A stretch of 64,000 bases of DNA, taken from Natrinema caseinilyticum (lineage in GTDB: Archaea > Halobacteriota > Halobacteria > Halobacteriales > Natrialbaceae). Both the position numbers and the translations under genes were made by a program. Positions 45,157 to 60,434 of this stretch are shown piece after piece. The first letter of the stretch is position 1, and every line of letters begins with the position of its first letter. The stretch spans positions 3,221,369 to 3,285,368 of the forward strand of contig NZ_CP100445.1 of assembly GCF_024227435.1 (NCBI RefSeq). The letters run 5' to 3'. Under the pieces are notes generated by a model. That model saw nothing but the letters and a program-made list of their open reading frames with translations. It had not been told where the DNA came from and searched no databases.

Positions 45157-45180
45157 CGTCCTGACGGGGATTCGAACTCG
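45157..45180 (-). repeat. tRNA-Arg 3'-end fragment (att-like)
   Basis: Begins CGTCCTGACGGGGATTCGAA. It matches the 3' end (T arm and acceptor) of the intact tRNA-Arg at 22 of 24 positions, 213 bp away and in the same orientation. The rest of a tRNA is absent. Confidence 0.65.
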
Positions 45181-45351: not shown

Positions 45352-45369
45352 CATCGCAAATGAAGTGAG

Positions 45370-45442
45370 CGTCCTGACGGAGATTTGAACTCCGGTCCCT
45401 GGCTCCGCAAGCCAAGAGGATAGTCCACTACCCTATCAGGAC
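45370..45442 (-). tRNA. tRNA-Arg (anticodon GCG)
   Basis: On the minus strand, acceptor GTCCTGA pairs with TCAGGAC. The anticodon arm TTGGC-TTGCGGA-GCCAG gives GCG, reading CGC arginine codons. T arm CGGAG-TTCAAAT-CTCCG. No intron. The 3' CCA is not encoded, normal for haloarchaea. Confidence 0.93.
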
Positions 45443-51551: not shown

Positions 51552-51626
51552 GGGCCCTTAGCTCAGTCTGGTGAGAGCGCTCGGCTCATAACCGAGTGGT
51601 CGATGGTTCGAATCCGTCAGGGCCCA
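51552..51626 (+). tRNA. tRNA-Met (anticodon CAT)
   Basis: Acceptor GGGCCCT pairs with AGGGCCC. Anticodon arm CTCGG-CTCATAA-CCGAG. T arm GATGG-TTCGAAT-CCGTC. The CAT anticodon could also be tRNA-Ile2 with modified C34, but elongator methionine is more likely. Its 3' end is repeated at 51710, marking an integration site. Confidence 0.9.
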
Positions 51627-51627
51627 T
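51605..51627 (+). repeat. att-like direct repeat, copy in tRNA-Met
   Basis: The last 23 bp of tRNA-Met (first 20: GGTTCGAATCCGTCAGGGCC) recur exactly at 51710-51732. tRNA 3' ends are the usual att sites for archaeal integrases. Confidence 0.85.
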
Positions 51628-51668
51628 GAATTCTGTGACGAGCGGACGCGAGGATCGAATTCGTGACG

Positions 51669-51684
51669 ACCTGACGGTTCGAAT
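51669..51684 (-). repeat. Inverted partial copy of the tRNA-Met 3' end
   Basis: CCTGACGGTTCGAATA resembles the reverse complement of the att sequence (CCTGACGGATTCGAAC) with one base missing. It lies between the two direct copies, next to a small hairpin GGAGC-ttc-GCTCC at about 51690-51703. Confidence 0.5.
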
Positions 51685-51709
51685 AAGGGAGGAGCTTCGC
51701 TCCGAGCGG

Positions 51710-51732
51710 GGTTCGAATCCGTCAGGGCCCAT
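51710..51732 (+). repeat. att-like direct repeat, second copy
   Basis: Exact 23-bp copy of the tRNA-Met 3' end, 105 bp downstream, without the rest of the tRNA. Everything from here to about 58.0 kb looks acquired. Confidence 0.85.
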
Positions 51733-52116
51733 CCGGATTTTGAGTGGTTTAGATCCACGGGACAGCGTCGGGTGTATTTAAACGGCGCACGATGCGGCGT
51801 TTAGAGTCCGTTCAATTTGTGAACGGGGGTCAGCGTCGTCGTGCGGTTCGCTAAGAGCCGTATTACGGTAGCAGTGTCTAACCGGTTCGTGCGGTCTCAG
51901 TAAGGATGAGAGCCCGGTACAAATCCCGGCCCAGAAAATAGCCGCTTGTTAGTTTCCGTTCAAACAGCGGCTGTGTAGGCCGCTGAAGACACGCCGAGTC
52001 TCGAGAGTGGGCCGTTTATCTGATCTAAGTGTGCCTGCTGATATTTGAGTCCAGCGAATCGCCGAGCAGGGCCTTGACAGGATTTATGATGTAATGCTGT
52101 CTCGAGTTAGAAAACC
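51733..52116. other. Noncoding leader of the island with hairpins
   Basis: About 385 bp, AT-richer, no gene. Hairpins: CCGTTCA-atttg-TGAACGG (51808-51826) and AGCCGCT ... AGCGGCT (51940-51972). A T-arm-like CCCGGTACAAATCCCGG sits at 51913-51929. The end, GGATTTATGATGTAAT at about 52080-52095, is a likely promoter for the next operon. Confidence 0.5.
52081..52090 (+). promoter_or_regulatory. Likely TATA box of the McrBC-like operon
   Basis: ATTTATGATG lies 27-36 bp before the ATG at 52117, the spacing of haloarchaeal core promoters with a short or no leader. Confidence 0.5.
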
Positions 52117-55100
52117 ATGACTGACGGTCGCCGGATGTCCACCGATCGATTCTACGGTGGAATCGAGAAACGCTTGGAGATCCTTTTCGATTTCCTCTCT
52201 CTGCTGGACGGGTCCGACGCGGAAGATGAAGGGGTATCTGGTGAAAGGATCATCAATTGGATTCTCACCAACACGAACGCGGAGGAGCAAAGTGCCGTCG
52301 AACGCCACCTGAGTTTCATCGAGTCGATCGGTCTGATCGAGAGCGATGACGGTCGCTATAAACTCACACGAATCGGCAAGTGCTATCTGAGGGATCGAGA
52401 TCCGCTAGTCCTCTACAACTGCCTCCGTACCGGAGTCAAAGGCTTTGATACGATCGTTCGCAGGTTGGCGATCGAACCGCGAGCCGACGACGAGTTGATG
52501 GAGCTGCTGATCTCCGAATTCGAGGAGTGCAACATGGGAACCTCTGCGGTGGCGAAGCGCCACCGAGAGTGGTTGCAGGTGATCGGCTACGTCGAACGGG
52601 TAGACGATCGAAACCGCCTCACCGATTCGGGGGAAGCGATAGCGGACCAACTGCGAGGCGTGTCTTCTCTTGACCTCGAACCCGGCTCGATCTACGAGCG
52701 GACAGAGTTACACTCGAGGCACGGAGGGAGCAGACAGAGCGGAATAGCGCCGTCTCGCGACGAACCGGTCGTCTTCCTTTTCACGGGTGGATCCGGGGAG
52801 GAACACGGCTACCGAGACGAAATCCGATCGGACGGGACGGTGATCTACACCGGCGAGGGACAGGTCGGCGATATGGAAATGATGCGTGGAAATCGAGTCG
52901 TACGGGACCACGTCGAGGAAGGTAGAGAACTCCACCTCTTCGCGATGGAAGAGGAGGGCGTGAGGTACGTCGGACAGTACATGTACGCCGGCCACTTCTT
53001 CGAAGAACTGCCCGATTCCGAAGGGGAACTTCGCGAAGGGATCCGATTCAACCTCGCGCCGATCGGAGAGACCTCAACCTCGGATGCGCTACAGCGCTCC
53101 ACAAGTACCGCTCGAAGCGAAACCGGCGAGTCGTTGAATTCGGATCTTCGGCAATTCTCGGATCCGACGGTCTACCAGGTTCCCGTTAAGACTGGCGACG
53201 GACCGATCCGTACCAATTTCGATCAAACGGTGATCGAAGGTGTTCCGCAGGAGCGGGTGGAGGACGTGTACGAGCCACCGATCGATCGCGACACGCTTCA
53301 CCTCTGGGGCAATCGCGAGGATGAACCCGCCGAAGAGGGCGACTACCTGTTGTTCGCCGATCGGGAGGAACGCCACGAGGGAACTTACACGATTCTAGCG
53401 CGGATCGCACACGCGACGGTCTTAGATCGAGACGTGGCGGCGGAGTTCACCGACGCGGTCGGGTGGGGCGACGTCACCGACACGATATTCCCCCACGTGA
53501 TGTTTCTCGAGCCGGTGTACGAAGCGGAACTCGATCGAGAGACGTTTTGGGGCGTGCTCGGATTCAAGGGGTGGCCCAACGACACCTTCAGCGCCGTCAA
53601 TTTCGACCGGCGCGGTTCGAGCTTCTTCGACGAGTACGACTCCGTCGGGGAGTTCATCGATCGGATCGAAGGTCGCCGACTGTACCCATCTGGGCCGGCT
53701 ACGGGGTACGACTCGATGGAAGCTGCCCTCTCGGACGTTCGAGCTAAACTTTCGGAATCCGATGAAGGGCGGTCGTGGATTGAGTCTCGCATCGGCGAAG
53801 TGATCATCGGAGACTGGTCGCATGCCCTATCGGGGTTCAAACCTTCCGACGAAGTGTCACCCGACGCCGCGTCCACGTTCGATCAGATCCGAGCGGCCTA
53901 CGAGGCGCTGGAGCCGGAATTCGAGACGAAAGCCGAAGAGCTCGGAATCGGGCCGCTGGGGCGGTATTCTCGGGCACGAACGCTGTTCCTCACGTTGGTT
54001 CGCATCATCCAGGACGACCGAGAGCTTCCCGGTGCGCCGCTCACTCAACCGCGGTTGAACAGCATCCTTAGGAACACCTACACGACGATTGGTCGAGATG
54101 ACGAACCCCACTCGATGGGAATCTCGAGTCACCCCGTTCTAGACCACATCCGAGAATCCGAACCCACCGTCTACAAGTTCACGGGCCCGCCGAATTACTG
54201 GCTCACGACCGTCGAGTACGGATCGGTCTCGTTCGAAGATCGACACGAGAACCGGTGGGAGGAGCTAGAGGCGGGCGACGTCGCCTTGCTGCATTCTCGA
54301 GCCGAACCATCGAACTCCGGGCTCGACAGTATGCCGTACGGGCTAATCGGTGTCGGGATCATCGGTGAAACGTTCGAGAAGGACGAACCCTGGTGGTGGG
54401 ACGAGCACCAGGCCGGTGACGGGAGAACCTTTGAAATGGTCGCGAGCTTCGACCGCCTATTCCTCACCGGTGATGTGGATGCTATCGACACCTCCCGCGG
54501 AATTACCGAGAAAGAGCCGTCGGAGATCGGACGCGAACTCGGCGCGCTGACGGCGAATCGTCTGCCGATCGAGACGGCTAATGAGATCTGCGCTGACACG
54601 TCCGGGACCGAATTCCCGGCACAGGGGATGTTCGCCAGGTTCCGAACGGACGACGACGAAATCGACCACGACCGACCGCTTGCCCTCCTCGAGGCCATGG
54701 CCGACGACTTGACCGAGGTCGCGACGATCAATCCTCACGAGACGTACGACGGGTCGTTGTCCCAGGAGATCCTCGACGGGCTCCATTTCCCGAACGACCA
54801 GGGCGGGCGGATCCTCGAGCAGATTTCGACGGCGATACGCTCCGGGAAGCACGTCCTCCTCACCGGTCCACCAGGGACAGGGAAGACCGAGATTGCCGAG
54901 CGAATCTGCGAGCACCTCGCGACGGAGTCTCACCCATATCTTTACTCCGGGTTCGAGATGACGACGGCCACCGCCGACTGGTCTACGTTCGACACCGTCG
55001 GCGGGTACATGCCAGGCGAGTCCGATGGCGGCGGCGAGGAACTCTCCTTCACACCCGGTATCGTCCTCAACCGCCTCAAAAACACCGAGACGAGCATCCA

Positions 55101-55779
55101 GTCGAACGAACTGATCGTCATCGACGAACTCAATCGGGCGGACATCGATAAGGCGTTCGGCCAGCTATTCACGCTCTTATCCGGACAATCCGTTCAACTT
55201 CCGTACACCGTCGACGGAAAAGAGGTTGAGCTGACGACGTACGAGGACGTCGATGGGATCCCCTCGGCCAACCAGTACGCCGTGCCGAACTCGTGGCGAA
55301 TCTTCGCGACGATGAACGCCTACGACAAGACCTCGCTTTACGAGATGAGCTACGCGTTCATGCGTCGATTCGCGTTTGTCCGCGTACCGACGCCCGAACT
55401 TCCGGAGGGCGCGGACGGCGAACGGACCGTGGAGGACGTCGTCTTCGAGTACGCCAGTGCTTGGGACCTCGACATTTCCCGAGACGAAGCGTGGGCGGTC
55501 GGTCGCGTCTGGCAAGAGACGAACCACGCCGTTGAGGAGCGCGCCATCGGACCTGCCATCGTCGAGGACGTCCTCCGATACGTCACCCAACATCCCGAAG
55601 AGGAGCTCGAGTATCACCTCACGCAGGCCGTTGTCAGTTACATCTTCCCGCAGTTAGAGGGCGTACCCAAGCGAAAGCGAATCGTCCGCGAGATCGCACA
55701 CGTTCACGAGATCGATTCGGCGCTGCTCGAAGCCGCGGCGCGCGAGATGCTCCAAGTTACCCTCTCCACGAATGAATAA
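52117..55779 (+). CDS. McrB-like AAA+ NTPase with multiple predicted DNA-reader modules
   Basis: A 1220-residue protein. By eye: two winged-helix-like segments (about 12-95 and 100-182); an SRA/YDG-like module (215-318) with GGSGEEHGYRDEI and IYTGEGQVGDMEMMRGNRVV; an EVE/PUA-like module (383-525) starting TLHLWGNREDEPAEEGDYLL; a helical linker; a second EVE-like module (672-845) with VYKFTGPPNYWLTTVEYG and WEELEAGDVALLHSRAEP; and an McrB-type AAA+ domain. The last has Walker A G917-T924 (GPPGTGKT), the DELNRAD motif at D1003 and ATMNAYDKTS. McrB proteins sense modified DNA and drive a nuclease with NTP. The stop overlaps the nuclease gene by 8 bp. Confidence 0.85.
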   Translation: MTDGRRMSTDRFYGGIEKRLEILFDFLSLLDGSDAEDEGVSGERIINWILTNTNAEEQSAVERHLSFIESIGLIESDDGRYKLTRIGKCYLRDRDPLVLYNCLRTGVKGFDTIVRRLAIEPRADDELMELLISEFEECNMGTSAVAKRHREWLQVIGYVERVDDRNRLTDSGEAIADQLRGVSSLDLEPGSIYERTELHSRHGGSRQSGIAPSRDEPVVFLFTGGSGEEHGYRDEIRSDGTVIYTGEGQVGDMEMMRGNRVVRDHVEEGRELHLFAMEEEGVRYVGQYMYAGHFFEELPDSEGELREGIRFNLAPIGETSTSDALQRSTSTARSETGESLNSDLRQFSDPTVYQVPVKTGDGPIRTNFDQTVIEGVPQERVEDVYEPPIDRDTLHLWGNREDEPAEEGDYLLFADREERHEGTYTILARIAHATVLDRDVAAEFTDAVGWGDVTDTIFPHVMFLEPVYEAELDRETFWGVLGFKGWPNDTFSAVNFDRRGSSFFDEYDSVGEFIDRIEGRRLYPSGPATGYDSMEAALSDVRAKLSESDEGRSWIESRIGEVIIGDWSHALSGFKPSDEVSPDAASTFDQIRAAYEALEPEFETKAEELGIGPLGRYSRARTLFLTLVRIIQDDRELPGAPLTQPRLNSILRNTYTTIGRDDEPHSMGISSHPVLDHIRESEPTVYKFTGPPNYWLTTVEYGSVSFEDRHENRWEELEAGDVALLHSRAEPSNSGLDSMPYGLIGVGIIGETFEKDEPWWWDEHQAGDGRTFEMVASFDRLFLTGDVDAIDTSRGITEKEPSEIGRELGALTANRLPIETANEICADTSGTEFPAQGMFARFRTDDDEIDHDRPLALLEAMADDLTEVATINPHETYDGSLSQEILDGLHFPNDQGGRILEQISTAIRSGKHVLLTGPPGTGKTEIAERICEHLATESHPYLYSGFEMTTATADWSTFDTVGGYMPGESDGGGEELSFTPGIVLNRLKNTETSIQSNELIVIDELNRADIDKAFGQLFTLLSGQSVQLPYTVDGKEVELTTYEDVDGIPSANQYAVPNSWRIFATMNAYDKTSLYEMSYAFMRRFAFVRVPTPELPEGADGERTVEDVVFEYASAWDLDISRDEAWAVGRVWQETNHAVEERAIGPAIVEDVLRYVTQHPEEELEYHLTQAVVSYIFPQLEGVPKRKRIVREIAHVHEIDSALLEAAAREMLQVTLSTNE

Positions 55780-57115
55780 GAACGAACTCCTCGAGCGGCT
55801 CACGGAGGACATCCTCGCTTACGTGATGCACGGGACTTTTCCCGAGCGCGAGCTCGCCCGGTCGATCAAGCCGGAGCAGTTGGACGAGCGCTTCGAGGAG
55901 TACGAGCTCTTGCTCGACCTCCACTTCATTCTGCAAGACGACGTCGTCGAATTCGTCAGGGTGCTTCCGGAGCACCTGCGAAGCATTCGAACGGAAACGA
56001 GGACGACGTCGCGGACGCGACGGGGGACCGTCGACGGTCGGATCAATTGGGGTGCTACCCTGAAGAAGCGGTACGCCGAGCACCCGCGGGATTCGTCTAT
56101 CTTCGTCTGCGACAACCGGTCCGAGAACTACGACATTCCCGAGAACCTCGTCCTTAAACAGCTCATTTCGGTCATTCATCGAACGATACGGGAGTCCGAG
56201 GAGTATTTGAGAGGAGACTACGATTGGGTAAGCGAGACGTGGCGCGGGAACGAGGACCTGATCGACGAACTACAGCGGATCATTGAGCGAAACGTCCACG
56301 TTCGACGGATCCGCGAACCCGACGCGTACGAGCCCACGGAGCGAATGCTCACGACGGCTGCGGACTCGCGCCATGAGGTGTATCGAAATGCCGCATCTCT
56401 CCTCAGAGCTCGACGACGACTTTTCCGCGGTGAAGCTGACGAGATACGTCGACTGCTCGAAGAGACCGCCATCGCACCGGACGACGAGGACACGCTCTTC
56501 GAACTGTTCGTTCTATTTCGCTTCGTCGCAACCCTCGAGGTCCTCCGGGAGAGTCAACCGCAATTCCAGACGATCGCGACCGACCGCCAGGAGGTCGCCA
56601 GGTTCGAGGGCGAGAAGGAGATCGTCCTCTATCATGACAACTCCGCTCGCGACCGGAACTTGTCCTTCGTCGCGGTGCCGGACGAGGAGGAGGAACACTC
56701 CCGATCCGATAAAGTCCAGCTCGTCGCGCAGGAGATTGCGAGCGACTACTTCGGAAAGGACTACCAGAATCAAACTGGCCGCCCCGACGTCATCGTCCTC
56801 GAGATCATCTCCGAGGCTGATGATGAGCACGAGTACCTGATTACCGAGGTGAAGAACAGTACCAACGAAGACACGATTCGCCGAGGGATCAAGGAAACCC
56901 TCGAGTACCTCGCGTTCCTCCGCGTCAACGAGGAGTTCGTTTTCGGGCGAGACGACGGAGACGTCTTTGGTTCCGGCTGGAACGGGATCCTCGTCACGCA
57001 GGATTTAGACGACGAAACCCCCTCGTTAGATGAGCAATCCGATCGCGAAATCGCCGTACTTCAGGCCTCCGAGTTGGAAGAGGATCTGGAAACGATACTC
57101 CGTGAGGTTGTATAA
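55772..57115 (+). CDS. McrC-like PD-(D/E)XK nuclease partner
   Basis: A 447-residue protein, the likely McrC of the pair. Its C-terminal half has a PD-(D/E)XK core: E244 (TLFELFVLFRFVAT), D339 (GRPDVIVLEI), E359 and K361 (YLITEVKNST). The N-terminal half has GRINWGATLKKRYAEHP and NYDIPENLVLKQLISVIHRT, as in McrC-family connector domains that bind the McrB ring. It overlaps the McrB-like gene by 8 bp, so the two are co-translated. Nuclease residues are intact, suggesting an active effector. Confidence 0.85.
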   Translation: MNKNELLERLTEDILAYVMHGTFPERELARSIKPEQLDERFEEYELLLDLHFILQDDVVEFVRVLPEHLRSIRTETRTTSRTRRGTVDGRINWGATLKKRYAEHPRDSSIFVCDNRSENYDIPENLVLKQLISVIHRTIRESEEYLRGDYDWVSETWRGNEDLIDELQRIIERNVHVRRIREPDAYEPTERMLTTAADSRHEVYRNAASLLRARRRLFRGEADEIRRLLEETAIAPDDEDTLFELFVLFRFVATLEVLRESQPQFQTIATDRQEVARFEGEKEIVLYHDNSARDRNLSFVAVPDEEEEHSRSDKVQLVAQEIASDYFGKDYQNQTGRPDVIVLEIISEADDEHEYLITEVKNSTNEDTIRRGIKETLEYLAFLRVNEEFVFGRDDGDVFGSGWNGILVTQDLDDETPSLDEQSDREIAVLQASELEEDLETILREVV

Positions 57116-57228
57116 CGAGGAATGAGTCCGCCACCGACACAGAGCTATGGACAGCGACCGTTATCATGCCGAAAACCTTCGAATTTGTTCCGCGATTATA
57201 ACTCAACTGATCCTCCGTCGATTACCAC

Positions 57229-57600
57229 TTAGCTAGACTGCTCGACGAATTCGAGTTCTGAATGCTCATATGTGTAGCACTTAATCCCGTTTTCTTCACA
57301 GTGTTCCGCCAACTTCCCGGGCCAAACCCCTTCTTCCTCGAAGTCACCTAAGAATGCGACGGTGACCGCAGCTCTATCTCCACCGTTTCCACTCTCGACC
57401 ACCACGGCCGTATTCGGATCGCTGTGGCTGGTCTTGATTATCCGATCGCCCGGCGCGTATGGATTCGCCGCGAAATCGAGGTTCTCGTGCTTGTACGTCC
57501 AGAGTTTGATGACCGTATCGTGGCAGCACGAAGCCAGGATCGCTAAATCACCATCTCCTCCGAGGTCTGCGCGGTCGTCGACGACTACCGCGAACACCAA
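57229..57600 (-). CDS. Hypothetical protein with internal repeat
   Basis: A frame of up to 123 residues whose first codon (57600) is a weak TTG and whose first 20 residues lie antisense to the integrase remnant; the real start is unclear. Protein-like sequence: CCHDTVIKLWTYKHENLDFA, then NPYAPGDRIIKTSHSDPNTA and a C-terminal GVWPGKLAEHCEENGIK. The segments IKLWTYKHENLDF and IKCYTYEHSELEF look like two copies of one motif. It may be a truncated gene of the island. Function unknown. Confidence 0.5.
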   Translation of the reverse strand: MVFAVVVDDRADLGGDGDLAILASCCHDTVIKLWTYKHENLDFAANPYAPGDRIIKTSHSDPNTAVVVESGNGGDRAAVTVAFLGDFEEEGVWPGKLAEHCEENGIKCYTYEHSELEFVEQSS

Positions 57601-57999
57601 CGGCTGGACGTGATGGACGAGTACGGTCGGGAGCCGCTACTCGCGACCAGCCGGGGGCGCGTAGCGACCGCGACGATACGGCGCTACGTCTACAAGCGGT
57701 CTAGGCCGTACGTCATCGATCGAGAGTGCCCGCACGACCGCGATCCGGATGAGTGTGAGGCGATAGACGTGGGTCACGCGTCGAACTGTCCGTCGAGCGT
57801 GACGCCCCACCCAATTCGTCGCGGGTACACAACGCACCTGCTGCAGGCTGGTGTGCCCGTCGACGTCGTCAGCGACCGGTGTAACGTCTCGCCGAAGGTA
57901 ATCGATCGACACTACGACGTTCGGTCCGAGGAGGACAAGATGCGCCAGCGTCGGGAGGTACTCGACGAGATTTTGGACGACCGCCTGAATGACCGCTGA
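57547..57999 (+). pseudogene. Tyrosine recombinase (integrase) C-terminal remnant
   Basis: From a stop at 57544 the frame reads EVCAVVDDYREHQRLDVMDE, then GREPLLATSRGRVATATIRR, RECPHDRDPDECEAID and HPIRRGYTTHLLQAGVPVDV, ending VSPKVIDRHYDVRSEEDKMR. This is the catalytic C-terminal half of a haloarchaeal integrase: box II HxxR (HPIRR) and the tyrosine in RHYD are there, but the N-terminal DNA-binding part and the first catalytic arginine are missing. A GTG at 57610 could start a short peptide. It is the likely remains of the enzyme that inserted the element at tRNA-Met. Confidence 0.8.
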
Positions 58000-58034
58000 T
58001 CGACTACGTTACTCCGGTACGCGATCGGCGTTTC

Positions 58035-58280
58035 TCACTCGTCTGCCGGCGGCCCGTCCGCGTACTTGCACGTTTCTTCGAACGGACACGACTCGCAGTT
58101 CGGGCTCGACGCGGTGCAGACCGCCGTGCCGAAGTCGATGAGCGCGTGAAGGAAGTCGTCGCACCGGCCCGAGGGCGCCAACCGTTTCGCGAGATCCCAC
58201 ATCCTGGGCGCCTCGGGTTCCGTCGCAGTTTCGGGTCCGAATACCCGACCCAACACGCTCGTGGTCTCGCCACGGAACGT
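58035..58280 (-). pseudogene. MutY/endonuclease III-type glycosylase, C-terminal fragment
   Basis: A fragment with MWDLAKRLAPSGRCDDFLHA and LIDFGTAVCTASSPNCESC, then PFEETCKYADG. The cysteines are spaced C-x6-C-x2-C-x5-C, the [4Fe-4S] cluster of MutY/Nth glycosylases. The catalytic helix-hairpin-helix part is absent: upstream the frame becomes unrelated and overlaps the start of the DUF429 gene. A full-length protein cannot be made from here. Confidence 0.75.
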
Positions 58281-58316
58281 TAAGACGGCCGACTTCGAAT
58301 CGGGAGGTGAGATCGG

Positions 58317-59127
58317 ATGGGCGAATCGAAACACACCGTCGGTGTTGACTGGGCGTCCGGCAACTGGATCGCCGTAGAATACCGGGACGAAGAGTACGAG
58401 TGCGTAACTCTGGTCAGTGATTTCGAGGAACTTTGGGAGTCGTTCGAACCGAAACCCGACCGGGTCCTCGTCGACGTGCCAATCGGGCTCTGCGACGAGA
58501 ACGACGACGAAATCGCGGAGCGGGGGCGAGAATGCGACGATTTCGCGAGAAATGTGCTCGGTTCGAGATCGTCGAGCGTCTTCACTCCGCCGACCCGGCA
58601 GGCTGCCGAGTTGGCAAGAGACGGGAAATCACACGAAACCGTTTCGGCGAAGAACAGGGACATCGTCGAGAAGGGGCTCTCGATCCAGGCCTATCACATC
58701 GCGCCCGGGATTGCCGAGGTCGACGCGTTCCTTGACCCCGCCGAGGACGAACGGAACCTCCGGCGCGAGCGAGTGGAAGAAGCACATCCCGAGGTGTGCT
58801 TCGTCGCGTTCAACGGCGGAGAGCTCGAGTACCCCAAAACGAGCGCCGTCGGATTCGGAGAGCGGCTTTCCGCCCTCGAGAACGTCGTGGACGAACCGGG
58901 CGAGACGTTCCGAAAGATTAGCCGCGAAACTCGCGGAACACGAAGACGAGATAGGCGTAGCGGACGTCGAGGCGGACGACGTACTCGACGCGATGGCGCT
59001 GGCGATCACAGCTTGCGCGAACGAGGATGAGCGACGGACGATTCCCGAACACCCGCCAAAAGATCAGCGACGGCTACCCATGCAGATGGTCTACAGAGCA
59101 GAGTCCCCGTTGGAGGTGAGTAGGTGA
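58317..59127 (+). pseudogene. DUF429 predicted nuclease, frameshifted
   Basis: The first 200 codons encode a DUF429 protein (RNase H-like fold): VGVDWASGNWIAVEYRDEEY, VLVDVPIGLCDENDDEIAER, SSSVFTPPTRQAAELARDGK, SIQAYHIAPGIAEVDAFLDP and EEAHPEVCFVAFNGGELEYP. After FRKI at about 58911-58918 the frame turns arginine-rich. The expected C-terminus (LAAKLAEHEDEIGVADVEAD, VLDAMALAITACANEDERRT) continues in the +1 frame to a stop at 59125-59127. One extra base (in the GAAAGA run) explains this. It is a mutation, sequencing error or recoding. The restored stop overlaps the next ATG (TGATG). Confidence 0.82.
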
Positions 59128-59972
59128 TGCGAGTACTGTCCTGGAACGTGAACAAGTCCTCGAACCGAGAAGGGAGAATAGAGGATCAGCTCGCGGTAAT
59201 ACGGGAGCACGATGTCGACGTTCTGTTCCTGCAGGAGGTTCGATACGGCACGGATATGAAGTGGCTTGAGGTGTGGCAGGACGGTTTGGAAGAACTCGGT
59301 CTAGCTTCGATCGAACACAGTTGCGAGTGGGCCGCGGAACTCGCGGAATCGACGGTTCCGCCGCACGGCGATATCGGACACGACAACGGACACATCACCG
59401 CCGTTGCCGAAGACTGGGATCTGCGGAGGAATGAACAGCTGATCAGACCCGATCTCGAGAGAACCGACCGAAGCAAGTTCGACACTAACTTTCCGGAGAA
59501 AATTCTGGTGACCGAAGTGGAGACTTCCGATATCGAAATCGAGTGTTGGAACGTCAGAGCCGTGCCCGGTCGGAGCTGGGGAGACGAGAAGATCAAAATC
59601 TTCGAAACTGTGTACGAACGGCTCGTGGAAGCGGGATCCGAGACGCAGCTGCTCGCCGGCGATTTCAATTCGCCTCGTCGCGAACTTCCGGACGGCCAAG
59701 CGATTCCGTTCGGTTACGACAAAGACGCCGCCGTTCAAGACAGGTGGGTGAGTGCCGAACTCAACGTCCTGAAAGGACTCGGGCGCGTGGACATGGTGGA
59801 CGCGTTTCGATACGTGCACGGATACGGAGAGATCGGTGTAAGGGATACGAGCTGGAAATCGAAACGGTTCGACCACATCTTCGCTTCGTCGTCGCTCCGT
59901 CCGAGCCGGTGCTATTACGAGTCGGTCGATTGTAGCGATCACGCGCCGATCATCGCCGAACTCGAGGCCTGA
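59127..59972 (+). CDS. Endonuclease/exonuclease/phosphatase (EEP) family protein
   Basis: A 281-residue EEP-domain protein (DNase I / exonuclease III fold). Motifs: LSWNVNKSS (metal-site asparagine), LFLQEVRYG (metal-binding glutamate), LLAGDFNSPRRE (catalytic aspartate/asparagine) and the C-terminal CSDHAPIIAELE with the aspartate-histidine pair. It probably cuts DNA or a phosphoester. The ATG at 59127 shares its A with the stop of the DUF429 gene, so the two are coupled and may form a functional pair. No signal peptide. Confidence 0.88.
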   Translation: MRVLSWNVNKSSNREGRIEDQLAVIREHDVDVLFLQEVRYGTDMKWLEVWQDGLEELGLASIEHSCEWAAELAESTVPPHGDIGHDNGHITAVAEDWDLRRNEQLIRPDLERTDRSKFDTNFPEKILVTEVETSDIEIECWNVRAVPGRSWGDEKIKIFETVYERLVEAGSETQLLAGDFNSPRRELPDGQAIPFGYDKDAAVQDRWVSAELNVLKGLGRVDMVDAFRYVHGYGEIGVRDTSWKSKRFDHIFASSSLRPSRCYYESVDCSDHAPIIAELEA

Positions 59973-60434
59973 GCTCGATCGACGCGTCGGTCCAGAATCA
60001 GCTTAGTCGCTCCCGTTCGAGACTCGCAAGCGGTGTCGGAGGGACAGCCCACGCTCGCGACGGGTGATCCGACCGCAAAAACTCGATCGAACGGGCGCGT
60101 CACGGCGCGCCCGTCGACGGAGCCCCAATCTTGTTGACTATGCCGAATATGCCAACATCGGAATCGAAGACGGGACACGACTATAATTATACCCTTACTA
60201 AAGAGTGGGCTATACCCGGCCTTTAAGTGATCAGGTGGGTGTCGAACCTCGACAGACACTTTCGAGACCGATTCTCCGTCCGCAATGCGCTTGGCGTCCG
60301 ACCGACTGAAGAAATGGGAGACCGGCTGAAGATCCTACCGGGACGTCAGTCGTTTTTGCCCCGACGACAACTCTTTGGCCTGTATGCGAGAGGGTGTCCC
60401 GGAATTTGGCCACCACCGTCGTCTCCGAGTCGTA
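59973..60434. other. Intergenic region, AT-rich at 60.1-60.2 kb
   Basis: About 460 bp with no supported gene. The stretch near 60175-60215 (CTATAATTATACCCTTACTA) is AT-rich like a promoter but has no gene with a good start close behind it. It may mark the right edge of the acquired region. Confidence 0.4.

Follow-up and report, generated by a model that had tools for sequence, protein, structure and literature searches.

We consider it fairly probable, with ample room for doubt, that the DNA directly behind the tRNA-Met gene of Natrinema caseinilyticum (51627-51732) is one unit of a non-coding element family that lies behind tRNA genes throughout the Halobacteriales and is moved by recombination at the tRNA T-loop, a judgment that takes in the family and the recombination together. 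The locus lies in the window, the whole stretch of 64,000 nucleotides that was analysed. Behind the 3' end of the tRNA (tail 1), the unit consists of a hairpin (A), an inverted copy of the tRNA tail, a second hairpin (B) and a direct copy of the tRNA end (tail 2), with 83 bp between both tail copies (Table 1). The original prediction had described an exact 23-bp repeat of the tRNA-Met end with a partial inverted copy in between; both are real, and the repeat, GGTTCGAATCCGTCAGGGCCCAT, recurs at a spacing of 105 bp. With up to 3 mismatches allowed, this repeat is confined to these two places in the whole source genome, so the third copy that the prediction proposed to look for is absent at this threshold, and the reversed repeat gave zero matches in the same search. 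The DNA folding of the unit is modestly better than that of shuffled sequences (z -1.43), and no Rfam family covers the units at the tRNA-Met locus or at 20 further loci fetched from other genomes.

Table 1. Parts of the tRNA-Met locus and of the island to its right (positions in the window)
Feature	Position	Strand	Basis or remark
tRNA-Met(CAT)	51552-51626	+	ARAGORN
Tail 1: tRNA-Met 3' end, last 22 nt plus one flanking base	51605-51627	+	repeat search
Hairpin A region	51627-51669	+	sequence; this hairpin type also seen behind other tRNAs, e.g. at loci L047 and L050
GAATTC arms of hairpin A	both ends of 51628-51662		sequence
Inverted tRNA-tail copy, CCTGACGGTTCGAA (T-loop, T-stem, acceptor start)	51670-51683	-	
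Hairpin B, type B1	51684-51709	+	stem-loop GGAGCTTCGCTCC at 51691-51703
Match of covariance model R1 in hairpin B region	51675-51720		53.1 bits
Tail 2: exact direct copy of tRNA-Met 3' end	51710-51732	+	repeat search
Island right of tail 2	51733-60028		right limit approximate; absent from G023; left end common to G018 and G013
C-terminal remnant of SNJ2-type tyrosine integrase	57610-57999	+	virus-integrase comparison, Pfam

Distribution of the units behind haloarchaeal tRNA genes

Copies of a tRNA's own tail are frequent in this genome. We took tRNA loci from RF00005, with 46 ARAGORN predictions (among them some doubtful ones with introns), and searched up to 350 nt downstream for the 20-nt tail with at most 4 mismatches. 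A copy of the own tail followed 17 of the 46 predicted genes, while the tails of other tRNAs matched in 12 of 1684 tests, which bears out the view that the repeat is beyond chance. The same census in a control archaeon of another order, taking in 30 of its 50 tRNA loci with 32 predictions, returned 0/32 own-tail and 0/906 foreign-tail copies. Within the window, tRNA-Arg(gcg) (45369-45442, minus strand) is likewise followed by its own 3' end, copied at 45157-45175, 193 nt downstream on the tRNA strand.

As a query against relatives, the tRNA-Met locus gave short matches scattered across many genomes. Twenty of these places were fetched; 17 contain a tRNA when introns are allowed, 16 of which are followed by a partial copy of their own 3' end, and the fetched units share the plan of the tRNA-Met unit. 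R1, a covariance model built on 19 unit sequences and spanning the inverted tail, hairpin B and the direct tail copy, matched in 38 of 41 relatives. Among 392 sampled genomes of the phylum, R1 matched 77 of the 81 Halobacteriales genomes and none of the 311 others. Among the listed matches that were fetched, 64 of 68 lie within 300 bp downstream of a tRNA on the same strand; in a larger set the figure is 117 of 123 within 330 bp, behind tRNAs of 28 anticodons. These are undercounts for other types of hairpin B, because R1 was built from 19 such units and favours type B1, and further types are visible in the own-tail census. Hairpin B1 is near-identical behind unrelated tRNAs in several families. 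An exact pattern occurs in 21 stretches of named genomes, all of them titled as haloarchaeal (for example Natrinema, Natronococcus, Halorubrum and Halosimplex).

Cognate arms and signs of movement

Both tail copies are cognate to the tRNA that they follow. Compared with its own tRNA, the direct copy matches at 12.04 of 13 positions (7.70 with other tRNAs) and the inverted arm at 10.95 of 14 (9.49 with other tRNAs). Across the 107 of the 123 units that entered the arm analysis, both arms agree with the tRNA at 1427 aligned positions; the inverted arm alone deviates at 78 and the direct arm alone at 25, and a single position deviates in both, with the pairing kept. Pair counting on A1 found 15 cells changed on both sides compared with 4.7 +/- 1.7 in shuffles, much of this covariation being helix 1, because the tRNAs themselves vary. 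One inverted arm looks foreign, and we considered movement from a second Pro tRNA. This idea was dropped: the tail in question occurs once each, within units, in 3 of 5 genomes, and a decayed cognate copy suffices as explanation.

The units are patchy between close relatives. The source genome has a unit behind tRNA-Phe, while its congener G023 has none there; in G023 the flank follows the tRNA without interruption, and 76 of its first 79 bases match those of the source genome. Matches reach into a Phe unit in four other genomes (G015, G002, G016 and G030), and most other Natrinema matches end near the tRNA end. Since several genomes have this unit, the clean site may be a precise loss between direct repeats by ordinary recombination. 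Of 30 orthologous tRNA pairs in the source genome and G023, three have a copy in both, nine in the source genome only (three of these with a degenerate unit in G023), three in G023 only and 15 in neither. In G023, two different tRNA-Lys genes have units with 92% identity to each other, compared with 73% and 72% for their best matches in the source genome. We do not use G023 as a pristine empty tRNA-Met site, as its flank there resembles an SNJ2 left end; the clean site is that of tRNA-Phe.

In addition, units stack and exchange parts. A tRNA-Lys gene is followed by an array of four 111-bp units (G254) and a tRNA-Asp gene by two units of 165 bp (G368). Such arrays can hold identical units, and distal units are often, not always, more degenerate. 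Two His units of G297 have hairpin B in common and differ in A, and two Leu units of G254 have A in common and differ in B. Behind tRNA-Trp of G016, hairpin B is inverted between both tail cores with the orientation of A unchanged, and we read a second inversion of B in G008.

One might take the arrays of identical units, and the tails that alternate between direct and inverted with hairpins in between, for traces of faulty replication. If the template had been switched at the tRNA end, inverted and direct copies would result, which ordinary recombination would then amplify, with neither element nor enzyme involved. However, B1 has nearly the same sequence behind unrelated tRNAs of several families and the control archaeon has no such copies at all, and we regard this explanation as rather improbable.

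The main rival is that the unit acts as RNA. The tRNA transcript would read through into the unit, where the inverted tail would pair with tail 2 or compete for tail 1 and steer 3' processing, termination or the release of a small RNA. The position of the R1 matches downstream of tRNAs and on the same strand, the predicted stability of the hairpins and the pairing preserved through two-sided changes all speak for such a role, and patchiness would reflect gain and loss of an accessory RNA. Nevertheless, 29 of the 46 tRNA genes of the source genome have no unit, the tRNA-Phe unit is cleanly absent from the congener, hairpin B can invert, much of the pair covariation stems from differences between tRNAs, and no Rfam family covers the units at the loci scanned. 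On this balance we think an RNA role unlikely, though clearly to be taken seriously.

Under the favoured recombination reading, an enzyme acting in trans would insert, stack, exchange and remove units, with the crossover placed in the T-loop (GGTTCRAAT). Every insertion would keep the tRNA intact and leave one further copy of its 3' end behind, and later entrants at the same tRNA would displace older elements outward. Recognition of the hairpins may take place at the DNA level, perhaps in folded single strands. Three observations make us favour the T-loop: it is where the direct repeats start in every tRNA type seen, B flips between T-loop cores, and A and B are exchanged at those cores. Against this reading, a circle of about 100 bp is very small for excision by an ordinary integrase, the hairpin flips amount to two cases, and no enzyme was found. 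It is also weakened by the exceptions to greater decay in distal units and by the degenerate units that G023 has at three of the nine tRNAs scored as having a copy in the source genome only. Two scans of viral contigs for the exact pattern returned nothing, and a phage search returned mostly tRNA genes, with no record covered to 80%. A plasmid search gave one partial match to the unit.

We could speculate further, and only tentatively, that the units form an order-wide cassette system free of genes, in which a recombinase specific for the T-loop and acting on folded DNA inserts, stacks, flips and exchanges A and B hairpins set between alternately oriented T-loop-to-3'-end copies. A tyrosine recombinase of 351 aa (L244, 686-1738, minus strand), a candidate for this role, is present in all 81 Halobacteriales genomes of the phylum sample and in none of the 311 others (E <= 1e-50). 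It is a lead only, because any gene of the order's core genome might be distributed in this way.

The island behind the unit

In the source genome, the order is tRNA, unit, tail 2 and island. The original prediction had noticed an integrase remnant to the right of the repeat, and this is indeed present, 38-49% identical to the integrases of 12 haloarchaeal virus records (46% for SNJ2), with a weak Pfam match (PF00589, E = 0.0053) under the curated cut-off. The island thus has an integrase of the SNJ2 family at its end, as a C-terminal remnant only. As the prediction had stated, no distal copy of the repeat was found, so that the island lacks the core copies at both ends that SNJ2-type elements have; a deletion at the right end would explain this.

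The circular SNJ2 genome has 14 bp in common with the tRNA end, CCGTCAGGGCCCAT, and its attP junction contains neither inverted tail nor hairpin B. The repeats of the unit, in contrast to this short acceptor-end core, start at the T-loop and come with an inverted tail. Thus, unit and island are different kinds of insertion at one tRNA, and the same junction rules out the unit as an arm of the SNJ2 attP. As the unit stands between the tRNA and the SNJ2-type island, either the island is the older insertion or it used tail 2 for its own integration.

Other genomes have the two kinds of insertion in other arrangements. At L181 and L182, units stand beyond islands with no tRNA close by; the tRNA type that matches the unit is found 15-18 kb upstream, and there is a partial core in front of the unit. 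Units in G007 and G003 likewise have a core in front of them. The proposal of serial insertions at one tRNA end is therefore supported, both by the SNJ2-type integrase remnant in the right-hand island and by stacked islands and units behind single tRNAs elsewhere.

The proposal that the roughly 80 bp are what deletion left of one integrated element did not hold. Integrases that target tRNAs are common and an SNJ2-type remnant lies nearby, which is what makes the idea attractive. However, a similar size and plan recur behind tRNAs of 28 anticodons, in nearly all sampled Halobacteriales genomes and at over a third of the tRNA genes here, the SNJ2 attP offers just its 14-bp overlap without inverted tail or hairpin B, and a 35-kb tRNA-Met island of G008 ends in a core without a unit. 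In addition, the repeat pair occurs without this island in G003, with two exact copies 102 bp apart and a different, SNJ2-like flank, and a genome of another family (G030) has three copies of the tRNA-Met repeat; the prediction itself had listed a result of this kind as one that would refute it. We therefore set this origin aside as highly improbable.

Several further features were seen at these islands. In G003, about 20 kb separate two tRNA-Met units that resemble each other (L072, 2126-2310; L073, about 2150-2250). An SNJ2-like left end adjoins the first unit and a core precedes the second, which looks as though a provirus had inserted itself into an array, between two of its units. Right behind the tRNA, two tRNA-Thr islands (L181 and L183) have in their left ends T-loop-like inverted repeats around a palindrome (AGGTTCAAA ... 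TTCGAACCT in L183), an echo of the unit plan. In the window, the island contains two overlapping genes (52117-57115). One encodes a protein of 1220 aa in which Pfam finds an AAA_5 domain, the other a protein of 447 aa without Pfam match, and the pair may resemble McrB/McrC restriction. At the DNA level, a fragment at 58004-58334 (minus strand) aligns with the final part of an ORF of 353 aa in G008; it may be a truncated MutY-type glycosylase. Pfam gave no match for 2 of 8 window proteins, and a 788-aa open frame with an integrase match proved absent on closer look.

Implications and comparison with known systems

If the favoured reading is true, over a third of the tRNA genes of the source genome carry a repeat family that is undescribed: in the literature searched, which included few subscription papers, we found no earlier account of a family that spans an order and has inverted as well as direct tail copies behind the tRNAs of haloarchaea. 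Such a family would add attachment-like sites at tRNA genes, which are frequent landing sites of archaeal viruses and islands, and would account for many haloarchaeal sequences that look like attR scars. It could then not safely be assumed that a tRNA end copied nearby marks an island boundary. Moreover, the units would offer a testable system for recombination, or for RNA processing, at the T-loop.

Among known small elements, the MITEs, PATEs and small mobile repeats (SMRs) of Haloquadratum are, like the units, short, transposase-free, palindromic and patchy (PMC3119063). That account does not define them by tRNA ends and describes PATEs and SMRs without target duplication (PMC3119063). Judged as a MITE, the unit has the tRNA tails as its inverted repeats, an autonomous relative was not identified, and the precise tRNA-Phe site is compatible with gain and with loss.

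The units of Halobacteriales also recall larger systems. Casposons are large elements that encode their own integrase and insert at tRNA 3' ends with target duplication. The units would be like them in the place of insertion and the duplication and differ in being gene-free, and 83 bp cannot hold a casposase gene between the repeats. Integron cassette arrays have hairpin-forming recombination sites, and the units resemble them in architecture, with arrays and putative hairpin-forming sites; the units, however, carry no genes and their core is the tRNA T-loop.

At the tyrT locus of E. coli, 178-bp tandem repeats with copies of the tRNA 3' end lie behind the tRNA gene and are associated with the rtT RNA, and their processing and small-RNA release at the transcript level serve as the model for an RNA role. 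The haloarchaeal units too carry the tRNA 3' end in tandem, but they have an inverted tail and two hairpins, follow many types of tRNA and extend over a whole archaeal order. Finally, SNJ2-type viruses and islands use the same tRNA-Met 3' end, leave the tRNA intact and stack behind it, as the units do. They differ in having 14 bp of the acceptor end only, an integrase of their own and neither inverted tail nor hairpin B.
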